The translations under genes and the position numbers were made by a program. The notes beneath the pieces were generated by a model. It was not told where the DNA came from. It made no database searches and saw only the letters and a program-made list of their open reading frames with translations. From Triglochin maritima (taxonomy: Eukaryota > Streptophyta > Magnoliopsida > Alismatales > Juncaginaceae), in NCBI GenBank assembly GCA_963682175.1, contig OY821771.1:39390201-39454200 (forward strand): a DNA stretch of 64,000 nt, read 5' to 3'. This document shows, piece by piece, positions 29,461-64,000 of the stretch; position 1 is the stretch's first letter, and the number at the start of each line of letters is the position of its first letter.

Positions 29461-29940
29461 TTTTAAATTTGGAACTAATTGGTGATGACTCATCATCTTA
29501 TAAGATAAACCCCAAGAGAATATTCATAAATCCTCTAATAAGAGAATTTCTACTTTTTTAAGTAGGAAATTCTTCTTTTTTTGCAGTAGGAAATTCTACA
29601 AAACGTTGACTTGTTAAATTGATGGCGTCCATGGTTATGTTATATGCTAGTAGATTTGCATATCAACCCTCACACTACACACAAATTACACCACAATATA
29701 GCTACCCACTACTATCCTTAACATCTAACACATATTCTCTAATTACGTACATCCATATCCACACACAACCTAAATGCCTATTCATAACAAATATTCATCC
29801 TATTTTTAGCAACAACACATACTCTCCACGACATTTCGATGGACTTTTTCAAAATTCGACTCAAACTCGATCTCAAGTCAAACTCAAGTTCAAATTTAAG
29901 CTCGACAAACTCAACAAACCGAACTTAGACCAAATTAAGA
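29461..29940. other. Short gene-free spacer between two elements
   Basis: AT-rich. An open frame from 29619 has no family features. The last 100 bases contain CTCAAACTCGATCTCAAG-like pyrimidine/purine repeats of unknown origin. Confidence 0.35.
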
Positions 29941-31851
29941 TGGAAAAAAATTCAAAATAATTTTTTTAATTTTTGTTTTGCCAAAATAAACCTTAATTAA
30001 AAGTATTTTCAAACTATACTCGTTGCCACCACGTGGTGGCGGCAAGTTTGATTTTTAATGCATAGAGAACTCGACATCACCAGTGTCGAGTTCTCTTTGA
30101 TTTTTTATTGTCCAACACTTTGCATACTTCACCCGATCTGAGTTGTCAGGAGAACATGAGTTAAAAAAGAACTCGGCATCTGTGATGCCGACTTCTATTT
30201 GAATTGTTCTTCTGTCAACTCAGATCGTGCATGAAACAATTAGAGGGTCAGGAGAACAGTGTCTTAAATAGAACTCGGCATCTGAGATGTCGAGTTTAAT
30301 AGGCAGTTCTCGGTGTCCGTAACGTCGAGTTCCGACAGGCTATAAAAGCAGTCTGACGCCCACCTCTCCCTTATGCCGAGTTCTCGCGATTTTAAGGATA
30401 GAGATCTGGACGAGCCGTACTTGACTTATAAATTTTGATGAGGTGGTTATGAATTGTCCAGATCGAGTGATGAGACAGTTTGGTCTACAACTGCACATTC
30501 CAGAGCCGATGGAGAGACATGTAGTGAATCAGGGGGAGGGTAGACGTCAATTTGTTGACAGAAAATCAAAGATTCATTCAGCATTGATCGCATAGAAGAG
30601 ATCATCTACAATTTGAGCGACCACTCATATGTATCACTCATGAAGAGAGCACACGGTTGTATATGGAATGGTACTGGAGCATCGCCGTACGTTGGATTGT
30701 TCATCACACTTTGGCTCCAACTCATAACTTATACAGACCTCGAGCGGGTAGAGAGCGAGAGATGGTAAAATTTAAACATTTATTTAAACAATTACCACAT
30801 TTTAAAATTGTGTTTAGTGTTTGATGAACTGTTTAATTATCTGTAGGTGCACGGAGTTTATGAGTTCCACGAATAACTCCATCAAATTTACGATGCGATC
30901 AGAGATCATAAGACAGACTCTTCGATGGTTGGAAAATTGAAGGAAAAAATGAAGGTTAAGCTCATGTGTTTTGGTGCTGAATAACCCAAATTACGTTTGA
31001 GTCAAGATCACGTCGCTGAAGAAGAAAATCCACACACTCAAGAAGACGCTGCGCAGTCTGACTCAGGATACAGAGAATGTAGCACGAGGAGGGGGACGCG
31101 GCAGGGAGAGAGGACGTGCTCAAGCACGTCTTAAAAGTAAGAAAGGATTGAGAGGTCACTTAGGATAACTATTTAGTTGTGTTAAACTTATTTGGTTGTT
31201 ATTACACTACTTTTGGTTTTATGTTAAAATGTTAAACTCGTTTTTGTGGCTGTTTGTTGTTAAAACGTTTGTTGTTTTGGTTTTATCGTAGTTGTTTGTT
31301 TGTTGTGGTTGAATTGTGTTTTGGTAATTACAATGATTATCTTTGTTGTCAAATAGAACTCGGCACGAGAAATGAAATTGTCTTTGTTGTCAAACAGGAA
31401 AAGAAATTGTTGAGTTCTTAAATTAAATGACCTTGCACTCACTCTTCAAGATAACTCGGCACTGAAGATGCCGACTTCTCTTAATATGAACTCAGCATCA
31501 TAAATGTCGAGTTCACACCAACAGAAATTGGCATTCTCAGTGCCGAGTTCTTTTTGAAACATTGTTCTCTTGTCCCTCCAATCGTCTCATACACGATCTG
31601 AGTTGTCAGGAGAACAATATTTCAAATAGAAGTTGATATTGGAGATGCCGAGTTCTATTTGAAACTGTTATCCTGGCAACTCACGTCGAGCGAAATATAA
31701 CAAGTGTTGGGCAATAATAAATCAAAAAGAACTCGGCACTGGTAATGCCGAGTTTTCTATGCACTAAAAAACAAACCTACCGCCGTCACATGTCACCACG
31801 ACAATGAATTTAGGTTGAAAAATATTTTGATTTTTTTTTTCAAATTCATAT
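29941..31851 (+). mobile_element. TIR element with hairpin arrays and a mobile-domain relic (copy 1)
   Basis: Left terminal region (CCACCACGTGGTGG, then TTTTTAATGCATAGAGAACTCG) is inverted at the right end (ACTCGGCACTGGTAATGCCG, TTTCTATGCACTAAAAAAC, GTCACCACG). Inside each terminus lie several units of about 27 bp shaped GAACTCGRCATC...GATGYCGAGTTC, each able to fold as a hairpin (30060-30330 and 31360-31760). The middle holds a plant-mobile-domain relic. Exact ends and target duplication could not be fixed. A second, inverted copy starts at about 60178. Confidence 0.75.
30440..31170 (+). pseudogene. Plant mobile domain (PMD) relic
   Basis: A conceptual frame reads DRVMRQFGLQLHIPEPMERH, close to the R-Q-F-G...Q-x-I-P signature of plant mobile domain proteins carried by Mutator- and gypsy-type elements. 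A second frame further on gives LYMEWYWSIAVRWIVHHTL and NLYRPRAGRERE, the usual downstream part. The frames are offset and contain stops (for example after about 30585), so it is broken. A GT donor near 30768 and an acceptor before 30848 may mark an old intron. Confidence 0.6.
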
Positions 31852-36166: not shown

Positions 36167-37141
36167 TGTTGAATATTGGCTTATATTTGTTAAGGAAGCA
36201 AAACCAGGAAGAATCGGTCGACCGAATTGGATTCGGTTCACCGACGCACAACCCAGGAGATTTTCGGCGAAGACGGGTTGGTCTACCGAATTGGATTCGG
36301 TCCACCGACCTGAGGATTCCAGGCACTCCGTGTGCAGCTGGGATCGGACGACGGAATTGGATTCAGTCTACCGTCAGAAGGTTTCAAGCACTTCGGAACA
36401 ACGGTTCGGTAAACCGTTGAGGGGATTTTTGGTGTTCCGAGAATCTGGAAAGTGCTTGTCCAAGTTGGAACGGATTACCAAGGGTTACTCGGTCTACCGA
36501 AGGGTTGTTGGAATAGTTCGTTAGTTCGTGCAAGAAGCGTTCTCGCGGTCTACCGAGACGCGCGAGAATAGTTCCCTCGGCCAACCGAGAAGGATTCGGT
36601 TAACCGAATCGGAACAGGAATAGTTCCTGTTGAAGCATTCACGGTTAACCGAGCGAGCGTCGGTTAACCGTGCGCATGAATAGTTCTGCTCGGTTATTGC
36701 TTAATTTTAGCTCGGTTTTTTGAGTCTATAAAAGAGTTTGTTTGTACTTGCTCTTTCATACATTGCATACAAGTTAGTTTCCTTCATTGTGAGTTGAGAG
36801 ATTAAGGCTAGAGATAGATCTAGAGTGATTTGGAGGACCTATTGCCTCCAAGCGTTTGTAATCTCGGTTGCTTCTCTTGTTGGAGAAGCGGAAGAAGGAA
36901 AGGAAACCCGCAGGAGACCCCCCAAGGACGTAGGCACGTTGCCGAACCTTGTAAAACGCGTGTGTCGTGGTTGTTTCAGGTGTGCATGTGTTATTTGCTT
37001 GTTTTATTTCCATCTTGCTTGTGTTCGTGTTGCAATTGTGTTTGGGAGAGGGTCCACAGTTAATTCCGCAATCAATATTCTATTTTACGTGGTGCGTTTA
37101 ATCCGTGTCGAATTAGTGCATTATTAGATCCCCTCCCAACA
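36167..37141 (+). mobile_element. Solo LTR (copy 2) with perfect target duplication
   Basis: Begins TGTTGAATATTGGC and ends CCTCCCAACA, with AAAAC on both sides (36162-36166 and 37142-37146). A 975-bp LTR with no internal sequence. The U3 carries about a dozen CGGT-NN-ACCG motifs (CGGTCGACCG, CGGTCTACCG, GGTTAACCG) from 36213 to 36680. A TATA-like GTCTATAAAAGAG lies near 36725, followed by a U5-like tail. Same family as 11030-11976. It marks LTR-LTR recombination that removed the internal domain. Confidence 0.96.
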
Positions 37142-40215: not shown

Positions 40216-40425
40216 TGGAAAATAACTTATATACGAGTAAAGAATAGATATACTACTCTTAAATTTTGTTGACACACGGTCACATTTAACAATAAAATAA
40301 AAGCTAAAGTTCAAAATTAAAAATTCAAATTATAGATCTTGATCTACAACATATGTAGATTAGAGACAACGAAAATCATAAAATTTGGAACATGTTTTAC
40401 CCAATATTCAAATATGTAAAAATTA

Positions 40426-42933
40426 CTGAACCGCTAAACATCGCCCGCGATTTACATAAATCACCCGCGTCTTTTACCATTTTGTCATTCACTTTCAATA
40501 TATTTCTCATTTCGTCCTCTCCTATAAAAATATATATGCATCCCACTACCACTCTCTCTTCACTTCCCTCCCACCACTAAATCTCAACCACCAAGTAAGG
40601 ATGTCTCGGAGGACAAGAAAGACAATGGTTGCCGCACCATGGGATCCGAGAAAGATAAACTTTAATTTTTTTAAAAAGAATTAAAAAAAAGGGAAGTGTC
40701 TGCGGGAGATGCCTCCACCATGGTCTTGATAAACATTGTCATAAAATGGAATGCACCGCTATCTTATTAGCAATCACACAACGTGCGTATAACCAATTAT
40801 CTTCACCGCAATGAAAATCATCTGCAACACATTGAAATCCATAGTTTTCATCTGCACGTACATCATTTCATCCTTCCATCCATGATAAAATGATCCCTGG
40901 AACTATGTCTAGATATGGAAAATCATCTACGTCCATCCGTCCAGACACTACATGATGATACTGATGTTAATTATGATAATAATATAATAACTGGAAGAAA
41001 ATAATAACAATAACAATATCGATGTTAATTATGAAGGTACATACCATATCCACATATCATGTTTAACGATGACTGAGACGAACTAGAAGATCGAACACGA
41101 ACCTGACTCCGATTATGACAACGACCTCGCTCAGCATACTCAAATCCGCTCATATCCCGTTGTGTCGACGACCCCCTTGGTTGACCTCTAACCGTAGCGT
41201 TCTCTGCGGACTCAACATAGCTTGACTCATCGGGGTGTAGTTGCGCATGTATAAGACGAGAAACACTACGAATTACTGTAGGGTCGCTGCTAGAAACCTC
41301 GTCAACGAGGTTCTGAAAATGTTGGATGTCTTGTGACGACTGATCGATAAACTATGGCATGTCCACTCCTCTCCAACGACAAGTGTTCTCCAAAATAGAT
41401 GATTTTTTTGTAGATAAATTTACTTGCCTGATTGAATACAACGGTGGATGGTACATGCACAAGGAACCTCATGCATAGGAAGTCAGAAAAGTGCATCCAC
41501 ACCGAGTTCCAAGTTGATCACTTAACTCTCTCATTCTCTTCTGCTCCTGACACAATAATTTCAAGCAATAATTGGAAGTTCGACCAATTAGATGTTGAAA
41601 TAGAATCTCATCAAACATTGTGTTATGTCGACGCCTCGAATCCTCAAGAAGGTTTTGAATATTTGTGAGTTGCATTTCAATAGCCGCGTTGACATGGTCG
41701 AAACGAGTGTCAAGAACCGAAGTCGATGAAGCGATCCTATCTTTCAAGGCCGAATGAACGTCTCAACCCTACAATTCGTATTGATTCCGAAGTGAAGGAC
41801 TTTGTTCGTCCAATTCAACACAAACTTTTCTTTATGCAATGATCATGTCCTGTCCACATAGTTCGTGATAGTCGTGTGCGCATCTTTCAAAGCAGACACA
41901 ACTCTATTATACTTCTCCAGTGAAGTAGAAAGCACGAATATCCTCCACTTTCCACACTTAAATATCTCGGCTAACACCTTATCCTTGCCGCGTGTGTTAT
42001 ATACATAACTATATACGTCATTGTTAATATGTCACGTGCAAAGTCAATGATAGGAGTTACGAAATACCTCTCTCATTGACGCATAAGGCCTAATTCACGA
42101 TCCTTTATGATTGCAGTATGGCTGATAGCACTGCATAATAAATTCATGAACTTCTCCAACACTCACTTGTAACTACGCTCGGTCTCATCCTTTATAATTG
42201 CATAACCGATCAGAAATTTTATGTTTGTTGGTGTCACCCCAACTATCTCCGACAAAGGCATATTGTAGTTGTTTGTTTTGTACGGAGAATCCATGCAAAT
42301 GACTGAAGGATATGTACGTAACAGGTTAATGGATGTTGGATGTGCTGAATGTGTGAGTGACAACATAGTTTTTTTCTTCGGCCAAAATCCAATGCAAGTA
42401 CCAATGTTGGACTGTATGACGTAGAAACTGTTGGGCGATGTTCCTGCATTCAAAGTTGACCCTCCTTATGTAATTTCTACAGTTATAAATATGTCTTTGA
42501 TTTGGCTTGTCCTCCGGAAATTTCTCCTGTACGGCCACCAAGATGTTATGTTGTTACGATTGTGCCATCAACGAAATTACACCAAAATATTTTGAAATTA
42601 CACACCACAAGAATTATAATTTATTTGAAATTTTAAAATATTTGTTAAGCCAGGGCGTTTGGCTTAGACGCCCTTACCGTGGTGGGGGTGTTTGGCTTAG
42701 ACGCCCCGCCTTAATATATTTTTTTATAAAAAAACGTACATCGTCGGTGGGGTTTTCGGTTGATGGTTCGCCGGACATTTCCCTTGCAGTTGGTAGGTTG
42801 TGGGGTGAGAGTAAGTGAAGAGAGAGTTATTTTGCAAGGGGAGGACAAAATGAGAAATAGATTGCAAGGGAAAGGCAAAATGGTCAATGATGCGGGCAAT
42901 TTAAGTAAATCGCGGACGACGTTTAGTAACCCC
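40426..42933 (-). mobile_element. Mutator-like element with a transposase relic
   Basis: Inverted ends about 100 bp long: left CTGAACCGCTAAACATCG, right (reverse complement) GGGGTTACTAAACGTCG. Both continue with GCGATTTAC, TTAAATTGCCCGC-like, ACCATTTTG and TTTCTCATTT blocks. The TIRs are of the same family as 28272-29460, so this is the larger, formerly coding form. The flanking 9-mers TAAAAATTA and AAAAAATAA match at seven positions, weak support in A-rich DNA. GGCGTTTGGCTTAGACGCC units lie at about 42655-42710 near the right end. Confidence 0.78.
41045..42580 (-). pseudogene. Mutator-like (MULE) transposase, degraded
   Basis: On the minus strand the DDE domain is recognisable: MDSPYKTNNYNMPLSEIVGV (first catalytic Asp region, about 42290) and then AIIKDRELGLM (second Asp region, about 42100). 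After these come a decayed LC-x-HI helix and VLHFGINTNCRVETFIR near 41790. The C-terminal block near 41470-41750 continues this type. Several stops and frameshifts lie between the blocks, so it is inactive. It would have served the TIR family shared with 28272-29460. Confidence 0.8.
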
Positions 42934-43327
42934 AAAAAATAAACGCACTACATTAGTTAAAAACCCCAATTTATAGATCTTATATAAAACGATTATCACA
43001 ATTTATGATTTTCAACATCATTAATCTACTTATGTTGTAGATCAAAATCTACCGTTTAAATTTTCAATTTGAAGTTTAATCGTAACATGTGTCAACAATT
43101 TTTTAATGCAGTGGATCCTTTATATATATATGCAATTTATATATATATCAGCTAAGATATGTAAAAAATCAACTCAACTTTATCATAAACTTCGTGTGCG
43201 GTAGACATGCCTTCTCACAATGAATTACTTTCGGCTCTTGGGATTAAATAACTGATGGTTAGGTTCCTTAATTTCTTTCACAGAAGAATGATAAAGTAAT
43301 TAAATTCAATTTACCTTTAACAGAAAC
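42934..43327. other. Short gene-free spacer
   Basis: AT-rich with a TATA microsatellite near 43120-43150. No feature recognised. Confidence 0.4.
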
Positions 43328-46130: not shown

Positions 46131-46355
46131 TGTTATAAAATAAATATACATGAAACAAAGAAGATAAAAGATTTGGAGGAGAATAATTGTAGTATTTCAT
46201 CATCACCAAAAGTATATCAATGGTCTTACAATGATCTCCTATTTATAGGCTATAGGAGACAAATGAAATGATGTATGTTACAAGAGTAATGAGAATGTAA
46301 GATGTTGATGGAGTTATGTGAGGAGAATGTGAAGCATCCATGATGTTTCACAACA
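46131..46355 (-). repeat. 3' LTR of the 46.1-50.8 kb element
   Basis: 225-bp direct repeat with TG...CA ends, preceded on the minus strand by a purine tract. Confidence 0.93.
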
Positions 46356-47037
46356 CTCCCCCTTGGATCTTCACCTTTATACGCTAGGGATGATGCCTCA
46401 TTAAAAACTTTATCAAGATAACCCGATGGGATAAAAACTTGATAAAGGAAAAAAAAGTGCAGCGCGTATGATGCTCCCCCTCACTTCAACATATATTCTT
46501 TAAACGACGAACACCAAATTTAAAGACAAGCTTCTTAAAGACTTTGTGAAGGGGATGTGTTCTAAAAGTTTTACTTTTAAATGCCAATTATTATGAATTG
46601 AATGAGAAATCATTTTGTTCCTTGTTTATGTTATTCGTCTTTTAGAAGTGTTAAGGAAGAGACTCTTGGTCATTAACCGTAGAGCTCTAAAAGATATTGG
46701 TTTACATAAAACAAAAGATTTTCACAATCATGGTAATTAACATGAGACATTAATTACCGAGTTAAGATTGTCGTGTTGGTCATAGATCATTGTAGCTCTA
46801 CAAGTGAGTGACAACACGGGTACACAAAAAGAGGAAAACATTACTTTTGTATACTGAATAGACTTAATAAGTAAAACATTATAGAATTGTGTTTTCTGTG
46901 TCATTAATGTTTTACTGTGTCTTTGATCCTTTGATATGAGACTTATATCCGATCACTTAAGAATTGCTTAATTAGACTAGTGTCTTCAGCTATCGATGAG
47001 TGTAGTGTAAAGGCATTGATTGATTAAGTATGACTTT

Positions 47038-48679
47038 TGTTGGAGAAAATAGTTAGTCAAAAGATTATCATTGCCCCTCTTAATTGAGTAATGATATTAG
47101 TGGGCCCCTTGATAAAGCCAAGTTATAATGTGCACAATGTGACTTGAGTTAAGTCACATATTTATAACTAGCTTAAAGAGATCAAGAAATGAATACTAAT
47201 ACAAAGATGACACAATACTACTTTGTGTGTATTCTTAATATCATGAGGCAAAGGACGGACACAAGTGGTGCACTCCATCACTAAATGGATCGGGTTTTGG
47301 TTCGAGTGGAATTAAGACATCTGACTAATTGGGAGTTATAATGTGTAGCTAGATACCGCTTATAGCTTGTGATATTAAGCTCTTAATATCACTGTCAACT
47401 TAGTCTAGATCCTCTCATAGGTCATACCGCAAAAACCGGGAAACAAGAAGCTTGATTTTTGGTTCATATGATGCGTCGGGTTGCTATAGAAAATATGACA
47501 CATGTGGTGAACGAGTAAAATCAATTATGTTGTATATAACATAATTAGAATCATGATAAATTCATATGAGATGCATATATTATAGTGTGCAATAATTTAT
47601 TATTGCATAGGATAATATATTGCATAAGTTGTGAATTTGCTAAATCCCCCTAAAGTTCAAATTTTGTTGGAAATAAATCCAAAATTTGAAAAGGCAAAAT
47701 CGGGTTGACGTTCGGTAATCCGTTATGGTTCGGTCGACCGAAGGATCTGTGGATCGGTCAACCGAACGTGGAACGAATGGTCAAGTTGATTGACCGAACT
47801 TGACCAAAGTGTCTGGAACTCTGGATCGGTGTACCGAACCAGAAACGGTCGACCGAACAATGTCCAGTTCTGATATTTTCGGTTAACCGAATGAAACTCG
47901 GTCAAAGACACGAATTCGTTTGAACGGTTAAGAAGAATTTTTCTCCTTAAGAATCGCTCATCTGTCAAGTGCACGGAAATCCGAACGTGACATATTCGGT
48001 TAACCGAGTATGTCTCGGTAGACCGAGTCCCGATCGATTTTTTGTCTTTGATAATTAAGAGATTAATTTGATCAATGGTTGGATTAGCTCGAAACTTGGT
48101 CAAACGTTTTGTGGGTGCATATAATGCATTTTGGAATTAGTTTATGAGAGAAAATGTCAAGAGAGCATGACTTAAGAATAGTCATGATTAATAGTAAGAT
48201 TGGAGCCTATAAATAGGTCATTATTCTCATTAATTGACACATGTGTTTTTGTTAATTCTTTTCTCTCCTAATTCACCACAAAAGCCACGAAAATTATCTT
48301 AAATTTCTAAGTCTTTGGAAGGAGATATCTCAGAGATTAAGGAAGGGGTTTGTAGCTAGATTCTAAGCTATTTTGAAGATTGATTGGCTAGCTTCTTTCT
48401 CTCCAACCTTGTTTAGGGTTTCGGTGAACACTCGGAGGCATCCGGCGCAACGAGAAGCAACGATCATCTTCCTCAACGTCTCTGGAACATCAAGAAGTCT
48501 TAGAGAACTTCTAGGTATGAATTTCGAAGTCCCTTGTGTTTGTTTTAATAAGTTTTTGAAACTAGTTATTAAAACAAATCGATGCATGCATGAAATAAAT
48601 CGTAGAAAATTGTAATTGATCCTTATTATGCATAAAAATTCGAAAAATATATATGCACAATTAAACATGAAATCCTACA
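47038..48679 (+). mobile_element. Copia-type 5' LTR nested in opposite orientation
   Basis: The right border is clear: AAATCCTACA is followed by TGGTATCAGAGCTTAAGG (48681 on), the initiator-methionine tRNA primer-binding site, so a 5' LTR ends at 48679. A TATA-like CCTATAAATAGG is near 48205. The U3 has CGGT-NN-ACCG motifs at about 47715-48030. The left border at TGTTGGAG (47038) is a guess from the TG rule. No 3' LTR or coding region was found before 50584, so the element is truncated. Confidence 0.6.
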
Positions 48680-50584
48680 GTGGTATCAGAGCTTAAGGTT
48701 CAATTTTCTTATGATTTAAGGCTGTAAACGAATTTAGTTTACCATATAGGATTTAAACAATTCGGTTTACCGGTTTTTCGGTCTATGAATGTTTTGTTGA
48801 TATAATTCTCTGTAATAATTCGTTTTAAATGTTTTAAGTGTTTTAAAACATGCCATGTAATTATTATAATTAAGATTTAGACATTAGTCTAACTTACAAT
48901 AATTTTGTTTTATAAAGAAATGATTATTTTGTTTGAATCAACATGATACTAAGAATTCATATAACTTATACGGAGCAAGTGAATCAATATATAGTTTCTT
49001 GAGATATATATCATTTAATTTTAGAAGCACTACTAAATATGTAACTATTTCTTTTCATGTTTCATTGGATCGAGAATTCATGAAATTTGGATCAATAACT
49101 CGATGTTTTGTCCAACCACAAAAATAGACATGAGATTAAATCATAATACTTTTAAAATCATTTGTGCCACATTTATGCATGCAAGCTAACTCACACAAAA
49201 TAAAACACGAATATACTCAATCATATATCAATGTTGAGAATATATTGTGCAAATTTCAAAACAAAAATAATAATAATCATGACCATGCAGTACATGTATC
49301 AAAAGAGCATCACTTATTATATGCACATGATCTTGGAAATCAACTCAAGGTTGTGACATGTAAAATGGAGGTCCGTAGAAATAGATAATCAAGTAATATT
49401 TGAGTTTTGAAACAACAAACAAAAAAATCAAACTCTTTTGCCATTTAAATCACTCTCTGTTATCTTTGAACATATATGCCCAAGAGAAGGTCACTCACAC
49501 GTGGATGAATGTCTTATGAATTTGAATGACTAATAGCAATAACTAACATCACAAACAGTCACATAAGCACCATGCAACGTCACAATCAAACTATGTAGTA
49601 ACCGGTAAATATCTCAATAGAATCAAACACTATGACAAGCAATATATTTTATATATGTGTGTGTGAGGATAAAACAGTGATAACTAACTCCATATTAACA
49701 TAATAATTTAACACATAATGAAAGTATTTTCATACTAATCAACATAAACATGTGCAAGGTAGGATATATTACAAATAATGCTAAAAATCAATATTTCAAT
49801 GTGTATAATGAATATCAAGCAAGTGAATCTATAAAATACCACTTGAGATAGAAATCATTTCCTCCTTCTTCACCTTTTTTAACATATTATAAAATGTCAC
49901 AAGATATTAAATTCCAAACCAAGGTTTGCACTTCTATTTCAACAAATCAATATAGAATGGAATAATCGTGGAAGGAAATTCAACATTCACGTGTCTAACA
50001 CTATGATCATGAATCTATAGTGCAAGGATTTTAAGACAAATGGATGACATGAAATCAATACATGTATGAAGAGTTATAAGACTAAACTATGGATTGGTGG
50101 TATAAATACGTAGTTGGTAGCAAATGCAAAATTCTTTCATCATGGATAATGACATCGTAAAATTAGCGCATACAAGATCTAAAAGAAATTTGTACATTCA
50201 TGATTGATATCAAGGTCTAACGCTACTACAGGAAGAAAACAAATCAAATAATGTCGGTATAAAAACTTGATTTCGATTGGCATAACAAATCATCAAAACA
50301 ACCACTCATAACCTATGTGTATTATAAACATTTTTCTCGATCATATTGTTGATATTTTATTTTATGATATTAAATCATTTTTCTTCTTCTTCTTCAAATC
50401 AACAATAATGGTTTGAAGGATGCATGATACATACATCATATTAAATTGCATACCTCCGTTTCACGTTCCACTAAGTCGATCCGCAAATCAACCGTTCCAT
50501 CAAGTCGATCCACGAGTTGAGAAATTTTTTGCATGACCATCATCTTCAATTGGTTAGGCTAGAGACATGATTGTGTTGATAATG

Positions 50585-50815
50585 TGTTATAAAATAAATA
50601 TACATGGAACAAAGAAGATAAAAGATTTGGGGAAGAATATTTGTAGTATTTCATCATCACTAAAAGTATATCAATGGTCTTACAATGATCTCCTATTTAT
50701 AAGCTATAGGAGACAAATGAAAGAGTGTATGTTACAAAAGTAATGAGAATGTGAGAGTTTAATGGAGTTATAGGAGGAGAAAGTGAAGGTGAATCATCCA
50801 TGATGTTTCACAACA
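50585..50815 (-). repeat. 5' LTR of the 46.1-50.8 kb element
   Basis: 231-bp direct repeat of 46131-46355 with the same TG...CA ends. Confidence 0.93.
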
Positions 50816-50820
50816 CTACT

Positions 50821-51555
50821 CTTATTTTGGTTTAGAAGATTTTGAATGGACCAGAGAATAGGGATGAAAATGGACTTGGTTCTTTAAACTCGAACCCGAG
50901 TTTATTTGACTTAAACCTGCATCTTTAATTTGAAAAGTCTAGATCTAATCCCAAGGCGATCCCGATATTACTACATATTAATTCAGGATTTTGAAGGAAA
51001 CAAATTAAAGGTTTCCATAACTGAAACGAACACCTGAAAAGTTATCATTCAGTCGAAATTTAAATTCTGTCCTAGCATGTTCTGATAATGTTTGTTTATT
51101 GTAAATAAAAAATGTGTTGTCGTGAAAACGGACTTTGGAGTTTGGATCCAATCGCTGTTACAACCAACATATATAGGTGAGCAGGGCCTGATTAAAGCTG
51201 CTCCTACTTTAGTTGTATTCTGGACTAATGGTGGTGCTTCGAGCCCTACCCATGAACAATCTTTTTGTGTCTGTAGATCTTTGGTTTGAATTTAAATGGA
51301 GCTTTTGAAAACTCTTTTTTGTTAATTTGGTGTTGGAACTTGCAGGGTTCAATGATCCCAATGTCTTTATGGGCTATACCTGTGCAAAGAAGTGAAAGTT
51401 GTATGTATCAACTCAAAAAATCATGTGAGGTACACCGTGGACCCATGTCTAGGGGAATATCTACCAATCCGGTACCTTCCCATACAAAAGTTCATTCAAA
51501 GGTAGACATTAATATTTTACTTCAGTGATTCTGATATTTGAAACACAAGGATTTT
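50821..51555. other. Gene-free spacer
   Basis: No recognisable gene or repeat. Open frames at 51092-51528 have no family features. Confidence 0.35.
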
Positions 51556-51875: not shown

Positions 51876-54800
51876 ATGGATTCTTCCGTCCATGAAACCT
51901 CCATCGCTCCTGAAATTCTAGCCGCGCAGGTCTCTCCTCAACCCGGATGTGTTTTGTGTTGATTTAAGGGTTCAGCATCGACTTTTAAATTTTTTTTTGT
52001 GATTTCAGGGAAGCACGTACTACTTCCGCGAAACTAAGTGCGGTTTGACGGTCATTCACCGGCAGTTCAGTCGGATGAAGGGGGAGGAGAAGAAGGTTTT
52101 CAAAGTGACGCCTTTCGGTCACTTCCTCACTTTTCCTCACATGACAGCTGATAATGAGATCCTGGGTTGGTTCGTCGAACACTTCGACGCCAATGAGGTC
52201 GGGTTGAGAATATCAACTGGGGTCGTCCCATTTACGGTAGAAGACCTCGCCCTGCTACTGGGGCTAAGAGTGCATGGGCTGAGAGTTGATATAGAACCCA
52301 TGTACGTAGAGAAGCGAGACAGGGTTAACCTCGACAACACTCAGCTACTGGGTCATCTTACTGCCACGAGTGCGATGGGCGACGAGGAGGAGCACGTCTG
52401 TCTCCTTATTTGTATGATCTTCAATCATTTTTTGTTCTTCGATGGAACCCTGCGAACTAAAGCATGGTACACGAGGCACCTGAAGAACCTCAAGCGCCTC
52501 AAGAGATATATGTGGGCAAATGCAGTTCACGCTTGTTTGGTTAGGGGTCTGGAGGAAGCCAAAAGGGACCTGTCGAGGAGGAGATTGACTGGGAACTTCA
52601 CTCTGAAGCAGGGCTGCGTGTCTGGATGCGTTGCCATATTACAAGTAAGCAACTTATTTGATTGGTGTTGTGTCTGTCCGGAATAAGTGTTGTGTCTGTC
52701 CGGGATACGTGTTGTGACTGTCCGGAATATGTCATGTGTCTGTCCCGAATAAGTGTTGTTTCTGTCCGGAATAAGTGTTGTGACTGTCCGGAATAAGTGT
52801 TGTGTCGGTCCGGGATACGTGTTGTGTCGGTCCGGGATACGTGTTGTGTCTGTCAGGAATACATGTCGTGTCTGTCTGGAATAAGTGTTGTGTCTGTCCG
52901 GGATACGTGTTGTGACTGTCCGGAATAAGTCATGTGTCTGTCCGGAATAAGTGTTGTGTTTGTCCGGGATACGTGTTGTGACTGTTCGGAATAAGTCATG
53001 TGTCTGTCCGGAATACGTGTTGTGTCTGTCCGGAATAAGTCATGTGTCTGTCCGTAATTTATTATTTCTGTCTGGTTTACGTTACGAGGCTGTCAAGTTA
53101 TGTATTTATCTCCTCACTCATTCTTATTCTCAGGTGTGGCTTTGCGAGAAGTTCAAATTGGGGGATCCCAGTCCAGCATTTCCAAGGTTCAAATGTTGGA
53201 CGGAACTGTTTGGGAGACGTCTAATCCTGAGGAAATGGGAGGAACGCGGCATCAACTTGCATGAGATTTACTGGGCCAAATTTGAGTTAAAGGGCACTCC
53301 GACACTCAGTGAAAGGGAGCATGAACTGATGATAGAGGATCAAATTCCTCCTCCAAAAGCAACTCCCGCACAAAAGGTCGCCTCGAAGGATACACCTTCA
53401 ACATCCACTCTACCAAGGGTACAACTTAGTGAATGCAGCATTCCATGTGACCCACTGCTACAAGAGTTGGAATTGAGTGAGGTTAAGACGAATTGGCTGC
53501 AAGCCGAAACAGCCCTTAAGCATGCGACCGAAAAAATTAACAGACTGGAGGAAGAACTGAGGATCTCTCAAGAGGAGTGTCGGAGGCTGAGACAGAAAAT
53601 CGGTCTTGAAGGACTCCGTGGGAAGGAGGAAGAGAGGAATAGGAGGGAGGAGGAAGAGAGGAAGAAGATGGAGGAGGAAGAGAGGAATAGGAGAGAGGAG
53701 GAAGAAGAGGGAGGAGGAAGAGAGGAATAGGAGGGAGGAGGAAGAGAGGAAAAAATGAGGAGGAAGAGAGGAAGAGGAGGGAGGAGGAAGAGAGGAAGAT
53801 GAAGAGAGGAAGAGAGGAAGAGGAAGGAGGAGGAGGAACGGAAGAGGAAGAGGAAAAGCGGATGAGGAAGAGGAAGAGGAAGGAGGAAGAGAGGATGAGG
53901 AAGATGAGGGAGGAGGAAGAGGAATGAGGATGAGAGGCTGAGGAAGGAGGAGGAACGGAAGATGGAGGAAGAGGAAGAGAGGATTAAGAAGAAGAGAGAG
54001 GAGGAAGAGAGGAAGGAGGAGGAGGAACGGAAGAGGAAGGAGGAAGATGAAAAGAGGATTAACTTGAAGAGAGAGGAGGAAGAGAGGAAGAGGAAGAGAA
54101 GACGAGGAAGGAGGAGGAACGACAGAGGAAGGATGGGGAGGAACGACAGAGGAAGGAGGAAGAGCAAGATGGAAATGCACCCAACAAAATTGCGGACCAA
54201 AAGACCACGCTTGCGCACAGAAGATAGAGACGAAGCGTACAGGAAATCTGGCGAAGAGGGGGTAGACAAGAAGGCCGCAGAAGCCAACAAAGAGATAGAG
54301 GAGGCCGAAGAAGCCGCCAAAGATGTTCTGGCCGCCCATGTTTCCTCGACGAGACCTGATCTGGATGCGACCGCTTTGAGATCGTTGACACCTGATGAGG
54401 TACAACGTTTATTAAATCTCACGGCTCCCGAATACGACCCAAAAGAGGTGATCTGGACGGGGCAACTCTGCAATATAAGCCGTGAATATCTTAAGGAAAT
54501 AATAACGCCAAAATCGGAATTCAGCAACGAAACCATTGACGCCCTAATCGAGGTACTGGTCAGAAGAGGAGGGCCGCAAAAGGTTGTTTGCATATCAACC
54601 TTCGAATCGGGAAGGATTGTGGAGGGACAGGGAGGAGATATAATGGAAGACTGTCTACTCCCCAAAATTCTAGGACTAAATGCGGCGGAGACCATCATCG
54701 CACAACCATGCTGGAAGTCTGGCCACTGGACTCTGTTCGTTGCCAACGGACCGAGATCAGAGTTCATTCAATACAACAGTATATCTCATTCGCTGGGAAA

Positions 54801-55032
54801 AGGTGAAGATCCTTCCAAGTGTGTCAGAATTCATGAATGCACAGCATTTCAGTTGATGGAATTTTGGCGACGATTGTTGAAGGTCGATTGGCCGCTGATA
54901 GTTGAGAGGAAGGCTAGCCAACGACAGCTAGCCGGGAGTAACGACTGCGGGACATACGTTTTGTACTGGAACAAGTGTTTGATGGTGAATGTTGATCGAA
55001 GCCGAAGCAGTCCAAGATTATCCACCGTGTGA
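51876..55032 (+). pseudogene. Mobile-domain / Ulp1-type C48 cysteine protease gene, frame-disrupted
   Basis: Exon 1 is 51876-51929 (MDSSVHETSIAPEILAAQ), exon 2 is 52009-52644, and exon 3 starts at 53134. The GT-AG joins keep frame. Exon 2 encodes a mobile-domain/DUF1985-like region (GVVPFTVEDLALLLGLRVHG, ending GCVAILQ joined to VWLCEKF). Exon 3 has a coiled coil, then a very Glu/Arg-rich tract (53620-54170) with several stops and frame changes. The Ulp1 domain follows (about 54400-55000) with SGHWTLFV (catalytic His) and GSNDCGTYVLYW (catalytic Cys). The position that usually holds Asp reads YNSI, so Asn replaces it. The frame goes wrong near the C-terminus: the neighbouring frame carries VRGELANW, typical of the family end. 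Probably a deSUMOylase-like accessory of the transposon, now broken. Confidence 0.82.
52665..53060 (+). repeat. 22-bp minisatellite filling an intron, 18 units
   Basis: Eighteen units of exactly 22 bp with core GTTGTGTCTGTCCGGAATA occupy most of the 489-nt intron 52645-53133 of the Ulp1-type gene. Units vary at a few positions (GGGATAC/GGAATAA, GTGACTG/GTGTCTG). In sense orientation this is the same repeat as in the transposase intron. Confidence 0.95.
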
Positions 55033-55059
55033 GGGGCGAATTGGCTAACTGGTTACTTT

Positions 55060-55318
55060 AAGACTCTGGGGTGTGCGGTCAACAATAATCGGCATTTTAA
55101 TTGTTTTACTTAAACCATTGCTAAATTGTCACATAAACCATTGTTTTACAAAACTTATACTTGTTCAAATTACATAGACTATTTGTTATTTTACTTGAAG
55201 ACTCTGGGGTGTGCGGTCAACATTAATCGGCATTTTAATTGTTTTACTTTACACCATTGCTAAATTGTTACATAAACCATTGTTTTGCAAAATTTATACT
55301 TGTTCAAATTACATAGAC
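55060..55318 (+). repeat. 138-bp tandem duplication after the Ulp1 gene
   Basis: AAGACTCTGGGGTGTGCGG begins at 55060 and again at 55198; the 120 or so bases after each are nearly identical. The duplication covers what looks like the old 3' end of the Ulp1-type gene and adjoins the minisatellite at 55315. Confidence 0.9.
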
Positions 55319-55902
55319 ACACAACATATTCCGAACAGACACACAACTTATTCCGAACGGACACACATATTCCGAACGGACACTCAACGTATTCCGAACA
55401 GACATACAACATATTCCGAACAGACACACAACTTATTCCGAATAGACACACAACTTAAACCGAACAGACACACAACATATTCCGAACAGACACACATATT
55501 CCGAACGGACACTCAACGTATTCCGAACAGACACACATCATATTCCGAACAGACACACAACTTAAACGGAACAGACACCCAACATAAACCGAACAGACAC
55601 ACAACTTAAACCGAACGGACACACATCGTATTCCGAACAGACACACAACTTAAACCGAACAAACACACAACTTAATCCGAACAGACACACAACATATTCC
55701 GAACAGACACACAACTTATTCCGAACAGACACTCAACGTATTCCAAACATACACATAACTTATTCCGAACAGACACTCAACGTATTCCGAACAGACACAC
55801 AACTTAAACCGAACAGACACACATCATATTCCGAACAGATACACAACTTATTCCGAACTAACCCACAACATATTACGAACAGACAAACAACATATTCTGA
55901 AC
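55315..55902 (-). repeat. 22-bp minisatellite between the two genes, about 27 units
   Basis: Units of 22 bp (two of 19 bp) with core CACACAACTTATTCCGAAC. The reverse complement matches the intron repeat at 52665-53060. It sits between the 3' ends of the convergent genes and reads in the same sense as the transposase gene. Confidence 0.95.
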
Positions 55903-56018
55903 AAGGACACGGTTTTATACGAACTGAACGTGTATAACAACCATTTACAGATCCAAACAGATCAACAATTAGAAGTTTCTTGGTTTTACAAGAACTGAAA
56001 ATAACAAGAAATATTAAA

Positions 56019-58720
56019 TTAAGGAGGAAGTTCCTCGTAATACAAATTCATGTTCCAATCAGAGAAATCAGGATCCCCGGGTTTTGGTGCGACTTCGTGA
56101 AGCGACGATGTAACCTTCATCTTGAACTTTCTCTTCTCTTGTTGGGCGTGCTTTTTATGGCTTTTTTTAATTATCTTCTCAGCTAAAGACACTCGACGTC
56201 TAGTCGGCGGTCTTTCTACACGTCTGACATTATCTGGATTAAGAACTGATGTACCCGCAGACTCAGGTTCATCAAGTCGAACCAAGAACTGGGTAGTGTG
56301 CATACGTGCCTTAAACATTTCAATACACTTCACGGCCTCAATATACCTTTCGTGGGAAATGAAGGCTTCCTGTGCGATCCAAATGGCACGACCCATGTTG
56401 TTGTCGTGACGACGAAGCGCATCCTTCTCCATTACGCCATCGTCTGGGTACATCTTATCTCGATAGCTCCTTCGAATATCCTTCTGCCATCGATTAACGA
56501 TGTAAGAGTCTGGGAGCAATGCATTAGGATTTAAGCGTCCAAGTACAACAAAAACGTGGCAGCATAGAAGGTCAACGTGTTGAAACATTCTACAATCACA
56601 TGTGAAGTTCATGGATATGTTTTGTACTAGGAAACGTTTCGACAGAAGCTGCTCACCAGCCAAAACACGTTGCGATACCTTGTACTGAAATGTGTCATTC
56701 ATATTGAACTCCTCTGTTATATCGCAGTATATCATCTTCCCAATTTCTAACTGCACTTTCTTGAAGACCCCTACCGTATACAACTCGCTCATTTGTCTCT
56801 CGAATGGATAAATTGAAACAAACTGGGGTCTCTTATGAAGACAATCAAAATCTGATTGAGCTTCCTTCTCGTACTTATGGCGGAGCGCAAGTTCGTATTG
56901 TTGAACAAACTGCTTAAGGGTGGTCTTCGAAGTAAGATACTTGTCGAAAAAGGCGTTCATACTCTCGCTTCTCTGAGTAGATGTCATTCCTGCGAAAAAA
57001 ACTATCACCAACAAATGCAGGTATCCACGACTCTCGGATTGCATAAATCGATTTGAGCCAACTATGGTTCTGCAGGTCAAAATCAAGAAGGAAACCCTGC
57101 CAATTACGATCAAATTCTGTTGGGGGTTTGGAATCATATACAATCAATTTCAAATCAAATAACATGTGCTTCTGATACTGCGTTGACAACTTCACGGGAG
57201 TTTTGTTCATTATGTGCCATATACAGAATCTGTGTCTTGAATCTGGGAAGATATTCGTTACAGCAGCTGTAATGGCACCACATTGATCTGTTATTATGGC
57301 TGGGGGGTATATCTGCATAAATGGGGCAATTTAAAAGGAGTGAGTCATATATTGAAAGGTACAAAATCCTACTTTGAAAACTTTAACCGAACAGGCCCAC
57401 AACTTAATCCAAACAGACCAATCACTTAAACCGAACAGACACACAACTTAATCCGAACAGACAGACAACTTAATCCGAACAGACATTCAACTTATTCCGA
57501 ACAAACAGACAACTTATTCCGAACAGACCCACAACTTAAATCGAACACATACACAACTTAAACCGAACAGTCACACTACTTAACCCGAACACATACACAA
57601 CTTAAACCGAACAGTCACGCCACTTAAACCGAACCGTTCCACCACTTAATCCGAACCGTTCCACAACATAAACCGAACAATCACACCACTTAAACCGAAC
57701 AGATTCACACCTTAAACAGAACAGTCCCACCACTTAAACCGAACATTTCCACCACTTAAACCCAACAGTTCCACCACTTAAACCGAACACATACATAGCT
57801 TAAACTGAACAGTCACACCTTACCGTTCATGCACGACAACCATGTTTGGAACAACCATATGTAATTTTCAGTGGTCTCAGAAGACAGCAAAGCGCAACCG
57901 AGCAAAACTGACTCGAAATGGTGATTAACTCCTACAAATGGGGCAAAAGGCATGTCGTATTTGTTTGTAATGTAGGTGGTGTCGAAACATATTGCGTCTC
58001 CAAAGTATGAATATGCAGCTCTAGAACGACAGTCAGCCCAAAACACGTTCCGTAGTCTTCCTTCGTCATCCATATCGATTACATAGAAAAATATGGAATC
58101 AATCTTCTGCATCCTAGTGAAATAGTTCTGAAGAGCTTGTGCATCACCAGGTCCCATCTTTAAATTTCTGACATCGTTTACAACATTCCTGCACACAGAA
58201 ACCACTAAAACCAGGCGCAAAATGTTGAACTTCAATTATGTTAGGCAGAAAGAACACAAACCTTAAATCCCTTTCGTTGAAAGTCAATTTTTCATGACCT
58301 CCAGCCTCGACCACAAAAGATTGCATGGTCTTAGCAGCCGATATCCCAGCACTATCATTGCAGGATATGCGTGCTTTGGTGGCCCCATGGACGGTTCGTT
58401 TTTGTCTGAGAAAATGCATTTGCTCCTATTCAAGCATGGCGTGGTTATGTTTAAGATCCACAAAGTTAATGTAGTAACCACGTGCTGGGTTTCCAGAGAC
58501 CCTTATCCGAGCAGTGCATTGGACTCTACTGGATAACCTAGGCTTCAATTTTCCTTGCCCTTGGTTTGGTGGTGATGTGCCCTCCTTGGAGCAAGTCAGC
58601 GTGACCCGTATAACAACACCACAATCGTAATGAGATTGTCTTGTCTTAACACCAAAACCACAAGAATCGGCATAAGACACGTAAAATGTTTTGGCTTCTT
58701 CGAAAAAAGGAAAAAACCAC
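56019..58720 (-). pseudogene. FAR1/FHY3-type Mutator-like transposase, degraded
   Basis: Transposase with a FAR1 DNA-binding domain (EEAKTFYVSYADSCGFGV to DLKHNHAM, about 58715-58430), a MULE DDE domain (FWADCRSRAAYSYFGD, CFDTTYITNKYDMPFAPFVG; second part IITDQCGAITAAV) and a SWIM zinc finger (CDCRMFQHVDLLCCH). Introns: 58189-58261 and 57313-57833, the latter full of the 22-bp minisatellite. Lesions: in-frame TAG at 58426-58428; a one-base frameshift at an A7 run (56995-57001, plus strand); and a frame conflict at a G6 run (57302-57307, plus strand) just inside an exon. Stop at 56019-56021. Otherwise about full length, so inactivation looks recent or partly due to homopolymer sequencing error. 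It would mobilise the host element. Confidence 0.88.
57384..57815 (-). repeat. 22-bp minisatellite in the transposase intron
   Basis: About twenty degenerate 22-bp units with core ACACAACTTAAACCGAAC fill the intron 57313-57833. On the transposase sense strand this reads GTTGTGTGTCTGTTCGG, the same repeat and orientation as the Ulp1 gene intron array. It is the most diverged of the three arrays. Confidence 0.92.
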
Positions 58721-59005: not shown

Positions 59006-60177
59006 AAGCAAAAGATTTTTTTATTAATTTAGGGCCCATGACATTTTATGTCACATAAGGTACAAAAGAGCACACGAAGATTATGGTAAGTCCAACTAGA
59101 TACCATACACGCTCCAAAAGAAGTGTTCTAGAATATCAATGATTTTTTTTATGATCCAGAATTTTTGGTACCCGCCCCCATTTGGGTTAGGTGAGTTGCG
59201 ACTCTAAATTGAAGGTGGTCCACACCATTTGCACTGAGAACATTTGACATGCGAAGCGAGAGTTTGAACATGCATCTTCACGCACTAACCCCCTAACCAC
59301 TCCACTACGCCCCAAAGGACTTTAGAATATCAATGGTGTTCCTAATTTTGGTAAAATGCTTTTCGAAAGGTAGGTTGGCAGGATGGTTGGTCCAGAGTGT
59401 GGAGGTCCAGAGAGTAAGATCACGCATCATGGGTTCACAAGGCGGGCGATATTTCGAAAGACGCAATCGTTCCTAGCTCTCCAAACACTCCAAGGTAGAC
59501 ATAAAGAAGGGTCCGCACATGTCTGATGCCCCAAGCAGTGAGAGACCGAGCCGTAAGGGTATAAGAGGTCATATGGTTCATGAGATGCTAAAATAGCACA
59601 AGAGGAACCGAGAATCTTATTGATCATGAGAGATGTAATTACACAAGGATCTTATTTGAAACACGAGAATCAACACTTATTTTATGATTACTCCTAATTC
59701 CTCGACACTCATCACCACATTGAGACACACAAGTTGTAGTGTCAAATATGGGATGGTCTACGTTTGTCACCACTAATTCTCGAACCGACAATCTCATGCC
59801 TGCGAAACCGGTCCCGACACACCGAGGGGGTTGGATCAACACTAATGTGACGTCAAGATCATGGCAATTATTTGGTTACACACAATTTTCATTATTAAGA
59901 ACGACGACCGGACTGGGCCTAATCTCGGTTTATCATTCCAAATAGCATAATAACAAATATTATGGATCCTAAGGGTTAGTTAGAAAAGAATACAAATCTC
60001 ATATTCCCAACAAGTCTAAATCCAACAATTAAAACCCAAGATAAGCTCGGCCCAGCCCACTGATATCGAAATTTTCGGAATAATTCCCGAACAAAACATA
60101 AACCAAACAAATTATCTTTCGGAGGGTCAAACTGCAAATTACCCAGATAGCGCAAAGGACAGTTAATTAAAGGAAAA
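59006..60177. other. Gene-free DNA with SINE and LINE-like relics
   Basis: Mostly non-coding. It holds a reverse-oriented tRNA-like SINE candidate and a possible LINE relic: the minus strand around 59430-59625 gives LCLPWSVWRARNDCVFRN, like the W-x-x-W/R-x-R-N segment near the end of plant LINE ORF2, too short to be sure. No host gene recognised. Confidence 0.35.
59165..59320 (-). mobile_element. tRNA-derived SINE candidate
   Basis: On the minus strand TAGTGGAGTGGTTAGGGGG (A-box-like, about 59292-59310) is followed by ATGTTCAAACTCTCG (B-box-like, about 59256-59270). The spacing resembles the candidate at 34635. Ends are not defined. Confidence 0.4.
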
Positions 60178-60579
60178 AATTTCAAAATAATATTCTTTTA
60201 AAAAAATTACCAAAATAAACCTACTAAAAAAATTTACACTAGACCCGCTGCCACCACGTGGTGACAAGTGGCGGTAGCGGGTTTGTTTTTTAGTGTATAC
60301 AGAACTCGACACTGGTGATCCCGAGTTTTCTTTGAGAGAACTCGACATCACAGGTGCCAAGTTCCATTTCAAATAACTCGGCACTGGTGATGTCGAGTTC
60401 TGATTAAGAGAACTTGACATCAAAGAACTCGACACTGGTGATTTCGAGTTTTGATTGAGAGAAGTTGACATCCTCAGTGCCGAGTTCAGTTTGATTTTTA
60501 TTGCGGGAACACCATATTTCTCTCGAAGTGATCTGCCAGGAGAACATGATTTCAAATTGATCTCGGCACTGGTGATGCA

Positions 60580-62093
60580 TGTTGGCTTTTTGGTCTTAAT
60601 CTATGTTTTGATGATTTAATCAACCTAATCTTAATTGTGATCATGTAAAGTAGCATACATGTTGCATTGCATATATACTGCTTTGTGCTAACCTCTACAG
60701 GTGATCAAGACTCAAGGAAGAAAGGAAATCAAGTCAAAACATGTAATCAAACTCATTTGAAGGCATGTAATTTGTATTTTTTTTGAGTCTTAGGAACTTT
60801 GTGTAATTGCGCATACTTGAGCAAAAAACAACTCAAACACACACTAGGTTCCCTATAGAAGTCACACACGAAATTTCACATAATTTGGACTTCAATAGAT
60901 CGCCCAAACTTATACCGGAAAACACCAAACCTTAACCTGAACAGTCTGCCCACATTCGGTCGACCGAAACAGACCGTTCGGTCGACTGAGTGATCATATA
61001 TTCTTTAAGTGTTTTACTGCCCAATTCGGTCGACTGTCCAGACCTTTTCGGTCGACCGAGTTAACATATTTTTTTGACTGTTTGTTTTGTCATATTATAC
61101 CCAACGGTCGTATTCGTATTATCTCCACATACCCCCAAATACATTTTGTGTATCGGTCGACCGAGGACCTTGTTCGGTCGACCGAACTTATGTTCCTTGA
61201 CAAACCTAAAGTGCCTATCGGTTTTCGATCGACCGTGAACCTTGTTTCGGTCGACCGAATATGATCTTGTTTGTCAACCCCATAGTTTCTGGTGTGAATC
61301 AGTCGACCGAATCTATCTCGGTGTTCGACCGATCACTTAAGTGTACCAAGATTATAGCCTTTGGCGGCCGACCGTTCTTTTACCGGTCGACCAAACCGAG
61401 TTCTAAATTGCCAAACGGTCGACCGAACTCACTCAGAATTGGGTCCTGTCAGTTTCTGTTTTGTGTATCTTACACAATTTTTACCCAATTCATCCCCAAC
61501 GGCTATAGCTCTTTTGGAGTTTATAAATAGAGTTGTAAAACACATTTTAACACATCTCTCCCACTACTATTTGTCCCTTATATTAGAGAGAAAGCTTCAA
61601 ACACTCCAAGCCTCAAACCTTCCACACTTTAGTCTTAAATCATATTCTCACTCAAGTGTGCTCAAGTTTAGAGAGTGTTGTTCCACTCAACCATTGTTCA
61701 AGAAGCAAAAGTCTTGGTGAAAGCCCAAGACAAGAGTATAGACTTCGGTGAGTGCCCGAAGTATCCCTCACGGATTGTGAGAGGAGGAGCCAAACTCGGC
61801 GAGGTTTGTTCGCGAGTTTGAAGATTGTAAAGACGTTCTCTCCCGGCCCGGAATGGGGAGTGGTTAGTGAAGTCGTGAGCGGAGCTCGGTGAGCCGAGCG
61901 AAGCTTGCAAGAGAGGACTAGGACCAGGATGGTGTGCCGAACTCTGTAAAATCCCCCGTCTCCCTTGTAGCTTGCATTTGTCTTTCCTTTACTTGGTTGT
62001 TTAGTTTTAAATTTCGCCGCATATCTTTGATCGATCAAACAAGTAGGTAATTAGTTAAAAGTGATTAGAATTGTAGACCATCACGATCCTACA
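60580..62093 (+). repeat. 5' LTR of the inverted-end element
   Basis: Runs from TGTTGG to GATCCTACA, directly before the primer-binding site. The U3 has a dense set of GGTCGACCGA motifs (60955-61430), then a TATA-like TTTATAAATAGAG near 61518 and a U5-like tail. Confidence 0.75.
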
Positions 62094-62144
62094 TTTGGTA
62101 TCAGTACCTCATGAGTTAAATCACATACTTAATTGTATTTTTAG

Positions 62145-63629
62145 CATGACTTCAACATCTATTCATGTAGAGGGATTGTGCACCACTAGATCATCTTTGC
62201 TTAATGAGTCTAATTATGATTATTGGAAGAATATGATGAAAATTTTCTTAATTTCTAATGACATTAAGTATTAGATGTTTCTTCAAAATCCATACACACC
62301 CCCAAATAAAGATGAATTAGATTCACTTACTAAGCCCAAAATGAAAGAAATTTAGATGAACTCAAAAATAATGAACATTCTATATTGTGGGCTTAATGAG
62401 GGTAAATATAATAGGATTATGGGTTGTGAAAGTGCATATGAAATATGACATAGACTACAAATGCATCGTGGTGGTGATAGCAAAACTAAGGAAACCCGCA
62501 TTAGTCTCCTCATGCATAAATATGAAATATTTTCTATGCAAATTGGTGAGAACATAAGCGACATGAACACTCGCTTCACCGATATTACTAACTCTTTTTT
62601 GGTCATTGGAAGAAAAATCAATGAAGGAGAGATGACACGGAAGTTCCTCCGGTCATTTAGCATCGATTGGGAAGATAAAATCGTCGCAATTGAAGATACG
62701 CATGATCTTTCCAAATTAAAGATGTAGGAACTCGTTGGAAACTTGATGGCGTATGAACTTCAAATCAACCATCGAAAGGAGAAGGAAGCTTTAAAGAACA
62801 AACCATTCTTGTCATTACATGCAAATATTGAACAACCAAGGAGGAATGTAGAAGATGAGGACATTGAAGTCCTAGCCAAAGACTTCTTCAAATACCTCAA
62901 GAATGATAATGGAGAAAAAAAATGAAAGAAGAGGTAGAAGATGTGAGAAAAGTGAAAAAGAAAAGGAGGAGAGCGAAAATGAGAGAAGAGAAAGGGAGAA
63001 GAAAAAGGAGAGAAGGGAAAGGAGAAGAGAAAAGGAGAAGAGAAGAGAAAGGAATGAGGAAGCTCACAATGCTACATGTGATGATTCTTCATCACCATCA
63101 TCATCATCTTCCTTGCAAAGTTGAAAAGATGTGGCTCATTCATGCTTCATGGCTATTGAAGATTATCAAAGTGAGGTAGACTCTAATTCTTGTTCCATTA
63201 GATCATGCTCAACTAAGTCTTATTATAGTGATATCTCAAATTTTACTGCAAATGATGAAACATATACATGATGAGCTTCAAAATGCATTCCATGACTTAG
63301 TTAAACAATACAAGATCATTTGTGATAAAAATAAGAATGCTAGAAAGCAAATCAAGGATCTCCAAAGCCAAATTGAATCAATCATGCATGAGAAGAATGA
63401 TGTGCTTGCTAAACTTGAAAATAATGCATCAACTCTTGATAATTTAAAAGCAACACATATAGATGTTGAACAATTAGATCTTCATGCCTGCAATGTGCAA
63501 TTAAGAAAAGATCTAGAAAAGTTCACAAATGGAACTAAGATGCTTAGTATGCTATTAGGAAGTCAAACGCAATCGTTGCAAAAACAGGATTTAGGATATA
63601 ATGATTCATATGTTAAAAACCGAGTGTAA
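62145..63629 (+). pseudogene. Copia (SIRE/Maximus-like) gag relic
   Basis: In pieces: LLNESNYDYWKNMMKIFL near the start (DUF4219/UBN2 type), then HRGGDSKTKETRISLLMHKY...EGEMTRKFLRSF (62461-62725), separated by stops. A Lys/Glu/Arg-rich stretch follows (62900-63100). Last comes a coiled coil ending KFTNGTKMLSMLLGSQTQS and GLGYND (63228-63629), the usual gag end in SIRE/Maximus elements. Protease, integrase and RT never follow; the sequence passes into the inverted U3 at 63637. Confidence 0.75.
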
Positions 63630-63636
63630 TGAATCT

Positions 63637-63763
63637 GATCGCCTGTAGAGGTTAGCACAAAGCAATATATATGCAATGCAATATGTGTGTTACTCTACAT
63701 GATCACAATTAAGATTAAGTTGATTAAATCATCAAAACATAGATTAAGGCCAAAAAGCCAACA
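63637..63763 (-). repeat. Inverted 127-bp U3 fragment at the right end
   Basis: Reverse complement of 60580-60706 with eight transitions and no gaps (about 94 percent). It ends exactly at the LTR TG terminus, where the target duplication begins. Confidence 0.95.
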
Positions 63764-64000
63764 ATACCGAGTTCACATCAAGAGAACTCGACAGTGGTGA
63801 CGTCGAGTTCTATTGAAGAGTGCAAGTTCATTTAATTTTAGAACTCGACAATTTCATTTCATGTTTAAAAACCTTTTGACAACAAAGACAAACATTTAAA
63901 TTACAAAACATTCAACAACAAACACAAACCATTTCCAAGTAGAAAAATACAATAAATATCACCATTTTTCATTTCCTAATTTCCAACACACCAAAAAATC

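Follow-up and report, generated by a model that had tools for sequence, protein, structure and literature searches.

Inverted terminal repeats are known from retrotransposons of the DIRS type, which carry a tyrosine recombinase, and the use of unusual cDNA ends by integrase is known from aberrant retroviral integrations, from Ty1 autointegration products and from donors with two U3 ends offered to purified integrases in vitro. TR-GAG elements consist of two direct LTRs around gag. These non-autonomous elements are attributed to Chaparro (2015) in the portion of PMC10552921 used here. Complex LTR elements formed by template switching were described in Triticeae, rice and maize by Sabot and Schulman (2007; PMC1950507, used in excerpt); according to the same excerpt, the target duplication of copia elements is 5 bp long, and in grasses 5-bp flanking repeats together with the similarity of the outer LTRs separate complexes that arose during reverse transcription from those produced by later recombination. 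An excerpt of PMC12786077 also refers to that paper, and plus-strand DNA of LTR elements is primed at the polypurine tract according to the excerpted part of PMC5371799.

In the window (the whole stretch of 64,000 nucleotides of Triglochin maritima DNA that was analysed), positions 60580 to 63763 are occupied by a decayed copia-type retrotransposon fragment of about 3.2 kb, both termini of which are formed by the same 128-nt LTR start, in opposite orientations (Table 1). The best reading of this locus, held with modest confidence, is a single integration of an aberrant reverse-transcription product with two U3 ends. The only full LTR opens with TGTTGG and closes with CCTACA, contains CGGTCGACCGA-type repeats as well as TTTATAAATA near 61520, and is followed by TGGTATCAG, which we take to be the usual copia primer-binding motif, of initiator-Met type. 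Its length was set without a second LTR copy, from the TG start, the CA end and the primer-binding site next to it. Two traits of Ty1/copia elements are thus present, a TG...CA LTR with an adjoining primer-binding site and a copia-type gag (PF14223, with homologous proteins found), and the sequence-only reading had correctly described a normal LTR and primer-binding site at the start of the element and gag as its sole retained coding part. By BLAST and repeat comparison across the window, the element has no directly oriented second LTR at its 3' end; only the inverted 128-nt tip matched, and no portion of the LTR was repeated elsewhere in the window apart from repeats within the LTR itself. 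Pol (with integrase before reverse transcriptase) was not found in the element, and there is no room for it, because the inverted U3 starts within 9 nt of gag and is itself followed by the host flank. Relatives were searched with gag only.

Table 1. Positions (in the window) of the element, its two ends and the surrounding host repeats.
Feature	Position	Strand	Extent or basis
LTR, the only full one	60580..62093	+	1514 bp, TG...CA ends
Primer-binding site TGGTATCAG	62096..62104	+	two bases past the LTR end
Decayed copia-type gag remnant	62146..63626	+	PF14223, E = 5.7e-17; protein alignments
Gag-to-U3 junction	63627..63635	+	up to 9 nt separating the end of gag homology from the inverted U3
Left arm, U3 positions 1 to 128	60580..60707	+	inverted-repeat comparison
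Right arm, inverted U3 positions 128 to 1	63636..63763	-	inverted-repeat comparison
Candidate target duplication, left copy ATGCA	60575..60579	+	flank comparison
Candidate target duplication, right copy ATACC	63764..63768	+	flank comparison
Left flank, host repeat element made of arrayed GAACTCG...CGAGTTC hairpin units	60172..60579	+	copies spaced 36, 36 and 51 bp
Right flank, same kind of host element	63764..64000	+	runs off the window
Uninterrupted counterpart of the joined flanks, second host-element copy	31294..31515	-	alignment
Uninterrupted unit, same host copy as the insertion	60375..60419	+	38/45 to the joined flanks

The gag remnant contains four in-frame stops within its first 258 codons, and frame shifts beyond. 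Protein searches giving 5 and 82 proteins identified 84 different relatives overall; a search with the C-terminal open reading frame of gag gave two candidates, neither of them significant, and a gag pattern compared with viral contigs gave seven pattern matches, none of which was confirmed. The closest relatives come from metagenome contigs; all relatives with a named source organism are from plants (Cephalotus, Citrus, Ulmus, Tanacetum, Rhodiola and Acer), which by itself makes a plant origin of the window most likely. The closest relative spanning the point at which gag is cut (P0003) is 85% identical over 112 amino acids up to LG[YF]N and has 57 further residues past the cut, with a WVPK-containing tail, and another (P0006; 44% over 128 columns) is aligned up to residue 443 of 493 and thus extends 50 residues further. 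As both proteins extend past the cut, the junction falls inside gag, and it is placed within 9 nt by the last residue aligning to P0006 and the first base of the inverted U3. If one gap is allowed, the match of the right arm reaches 63630 instead of 63636.

The two arms are identical at 120 of 128 positions without gaps, and on either side their similarity extends no further than the terminal TG. With a BLAST E-value of 1.95e-51 within the window, the pairing is not due to chance. The proposal that the right end is the inverted LTR start, exact to the TG, thus holds, except that the arm is 128 nt long and not 127. All eight differences are transitions, which is not a striking outcome (probability about 0.06 when the share of transitions among changes is assumed to be 70%); by context they affect 1 of 2 CG, 1 of 4 CHG and 6 of 38 CHH sites, a distribution that is compatible with the ageing of methylated DNA suggested for them but not specific to it. 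If the arms started identical, as arms from a template switch would, their divergence (8/128, K = 0.067) corresponds to approximately 2.6 million years at the rice substitution rate of 1.3e-8. Comparison of an 18-mer from the arm with viral contigs gave 13 stretches, of which one matched the element at E <= 1e-3, over 29-30 columns only, and a 39-letter arm pattern had no match in bacterial and archaeal genomes.

Misassembly is a risk at inverted repeats, but the flanks of the element are in register with the host array and the arms differ at eight positions, against what a simple duplication of one read would give, and an assembly artefact at 63636 is therefore considered very unlikely. The exact ends of the arms also bear on chromosomal fold-back or template-switch repair, by which a normal element would have copied its own U3 back to its flank. 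Short inverted templated insertions at breaks have been reported in yeast (PMC11724301, in the part used here), but the exact stop at the terminus is left unexplained by such repair, and copying past U3 position 1 should have produced the left flank in reverse complement (TGCATCACC...), whereas the right flank reads ATACCGAG; this origin appears just as improbable as an artefact. Repair that copied the left flank was rejected on the same comparison. Also rejected were the inversion of an ordinary 3' LTR, for which the breakpoint would have to sit exactly at the LTR edge, and a nested insertion into a 3' LTR, as there is no LTR end outside the right arm.

Both flanks belong to one array of hairpin units with a period of about 36 bp. 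When the flanks are joined and one 5-mer is removed, a unit-spacer-unit arrangement results, the four best ungapped matches of which cover 38, 37, 34 and 34 of 45 positions (at 60375, 60303, 31513 on the minus strand and 60426, respectively), while the remaining matches among the 12 listed reach at most 32/45, one of them being the right flank itself. The joined flanks had been said to rebuild a 'perfect' hairpin unit, a description that does not survive a best match of only 38/45 to intact units. Against the second host copy, the joined flanks gave an alignment of 131 columns (77%), 22 of which lie left of the join; in the host stretch 31250-31900, the partners of the two flanks are set apart, that of the wider left flank being found about 140 bp upstream of that of the right flank. 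This offset can be read as array lost between two insertions or as variation in unit number between host copies.

The second copy of the hairpin array, at approximately 29942-31800, has an arrangement of units unlike that of the copy at 60172. It has inverted ends of about 260 bp that are 80% identical (30030-30287 and 31535-31792), and the host element there is probably a non-autonomous DNA transposon.

The 5-bp overlap of the flanks, in register with the host units, fits a 5-bp target duplication but does not prove it, as the putative copies agree at only 3 of 5 positions. The flanks had been read as a duplication of ATGCC with one change per side; the copies are ATGCA and ATACC. Random 5-mers reach at least three agreements about 10% of the time, and at the divergence of the arms (8/128) two or more differences in 5 bp have a probability of 0.034. 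A gapped phase scan did not single out 5: with the three references it was best at 0 or -1 (score 48, versus 47 for 5), at 7, and at 4 or 17, respectively, and is uninformative because gaps absorb phase. In ungapped overlap scans, the 5-bp join shared first place with an overlap of 23 (0.78) within the same host copy. Against 31250-31900 it ranked sixth, with 41 letters compared to 23-29 in each of the five joins ahead of it, and against 29900-30500 it fell outside the best six. As the host is a periodic array, the 5-bp register could be a coincidence, at about 1 in 36.

The main rival explanation is that two elements of the same family were inserted in opposite orientations into neighbouring hairpin units, and that a later deletion, with one breakpoint in the gag of the left-hand element and the other at U3 position 128 of the right-hand element, removed the remainder of each together with the intervening array. 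The trace of such a history would hardly differ from that of integration through two U3 ends, and the history would account for the approximately 140 bp of array missing at the insertion point relative to 31250-31900, for flanking 5-mers that differ like those of different units (mean 3.5/5 matches in 15 pairs of 6 units) and for arms that differ by 6%, which is possible between two copies of a family. Against this, two same-family insertions close together are required, both of which must have struck the same phase of the ~36-bp period with an offset of exactly 5 (approximately 1 in 36 if uniform), and the joined arrangement occurs without loss in other units of the same host copy (38/45 at 60375). 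For two independent insertions, the 5-bp register has a probability of about 1/36, to be combined with about 0.4 for a match of the degree observed; the ratio obtained from the flanks by themselves, approximately 3 to 1 in favour of a single event (0.032 versus 0.011), is not decisive. Overall, we regard an origin by two insertions and a deletion as fairly unlikely. Integration through two U3 ends is favoured by arms that terminate precisely at U3 position 1, by the register of the host array at a 5-bp overlap and by a gag truncated at a point past which its relatives extend. The use of two U3 ends by integrase, as first suggested from the letters of the locus, thus agrees with the exact termini, the 5-bp register and the cut gag, but less well with a duplication matching at 3/5 and with the missing array of about 140 bp.

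The 5' end of a plus strand primed at the polypurine tract is U3 position 1. A growing plus strand, having reached gag, may have jumped to plus-sense U3 DNA, provided either by another plus-strand strong-stop molecule or by the plus strand's own 5' end. Entry near U3 position 128 would have been followed by copying to the end of the template, and the exact right terminus would then result from run-off at U3 position 1, after which displaced tails would be trimmed and sealed. The mirror route, a short strong-stop DNA jumping into gag, would give the same product and is indistinguishable from the first. In either case, integrase would have treated both U3 tips as ordinary ends and joined them to a target with a 5-bp stagger. 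The same anatomy would be obtained if two broken cDNAs, an LTR-gag molecule and a U3 fragment, had been end-joined head to head in the particle or nucleus and then integrated via the two U3 ends; a junction no longer than 9 nt, at which homology is short or absent, suits end joining and template switching equally. Nothing specific speaks against end joining, but it takes two breaks and a ligation versus one jump, and we consider it improbable.

If the locus does represent one integration, it is a natural experiment in which integrase would have managed in vivo without the usual pairing of a U3 with a U5 tip, and in which a DNA copy made by inverted strand switching would still have been able to integrate; counts of U3 tips that face each other head to head at a distance of a few kb, with 5-bp duplications, would then show for any plant genome how frequent such events are. 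We tentatively propose, as a conjecture that is itself rather doubtful, that the integrase of LTR retrotransposons is capable, in vivo, of complete concerted integration of molecules whose two U3 ends stem from an inverted (plus-strand) template switch, and that such insertions are recurrent in plant genomes but go unnoticed, as programs for LTR detection ask for direct repeats and those for TIRs look for transposase motifs. If two insertions and a deletion were responsible, the locus would be ordinary genome decay. The element should be a replicative dead end, as it has no 3' LTR and hence only one R region, a second being needed for strand transfer. A class of LTR elements with terminal inverted repeats, which the sequence-only reading had envisaged, found no support, the window containing one copy, which is without a 3' LTR; the same architecture was not found around a second copia primer-binding site at 48681, the longest inverted pair in 46400-51500 being 30 nt.

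This second primer-binding site follows an LTR-like end in the same order (CCTACA-G-TGGTATCAGAGC). Direct copies at 11030-11977 and 36167-37142 (82.5% over 983 columns) are rich in GGTCGACCGAA/GGTCCACCGAA motifs and are possibly solo LTRs of another family, with a motif style like that of the LTR at 60580. A direct repeat of 233 columns is also present (46131-46357 and 50585-50817; 90% identical, starts 4454 bp apart), as is an inverted pair of 86 nt at 40314-43070 (77% complementary, with 2585 bp between the arms). The region 52045-58235 resembles a Mutator-like element that has captured genes: it contains a Plant mobile domain (34.0 bits, just under the cut-off of 34.9) and an Ulp1-type peptidase C48, with a MULE transposase and a SWIM piece on the strand opposite to C48, and arrays of a 22-bp repeat lie nearby in both orientations.

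Among known systems, DIRS elements resemble the locus in their inverted terminal repeats but differ from it in that its gag and primer-binding site are of copia type; a tyrosine recombinase was not found in the two gag stretches scanned, in an element that is truncated. The same two stretches gave only gag and no transposase, the trait of TIR DNA transposons, and the termini are of the LTR type (TGTTGG). The likeness to aberrant retroviral integrations and Ty1 autointegration is that of integrase acting on unusual cDNA ends, and we know of no fossil genomic copy with two U3 tips. A structure of this kind was likewise not found in the literature searches made, from which no absence from print is claimed. 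Gag as the only coding part is shared with TR-GAG elements, going by the excerpted account of them, but where TR-GAG elements have two direct LTRs, the present element has one LTR and an inverted tip. The nearest published case found is that of the complexes of Sabot and Schulman (PMC1950507, as excerpted), with which the locus would share a plant copia origin, an aberrant reverse-transcription product and a single integration. By the definition in that excerpt, such complexes have an internal third LTR, two cores, a 5-bp duplication and similar outer LTRs, whereas the locus has one LTR and one partial core; the complexes arose by direct fusion and carry three LTRs, the outer ones being normal, while the element described here carries an inverted U3 tip at one end and is flanked by an imperfect candidate duplication.
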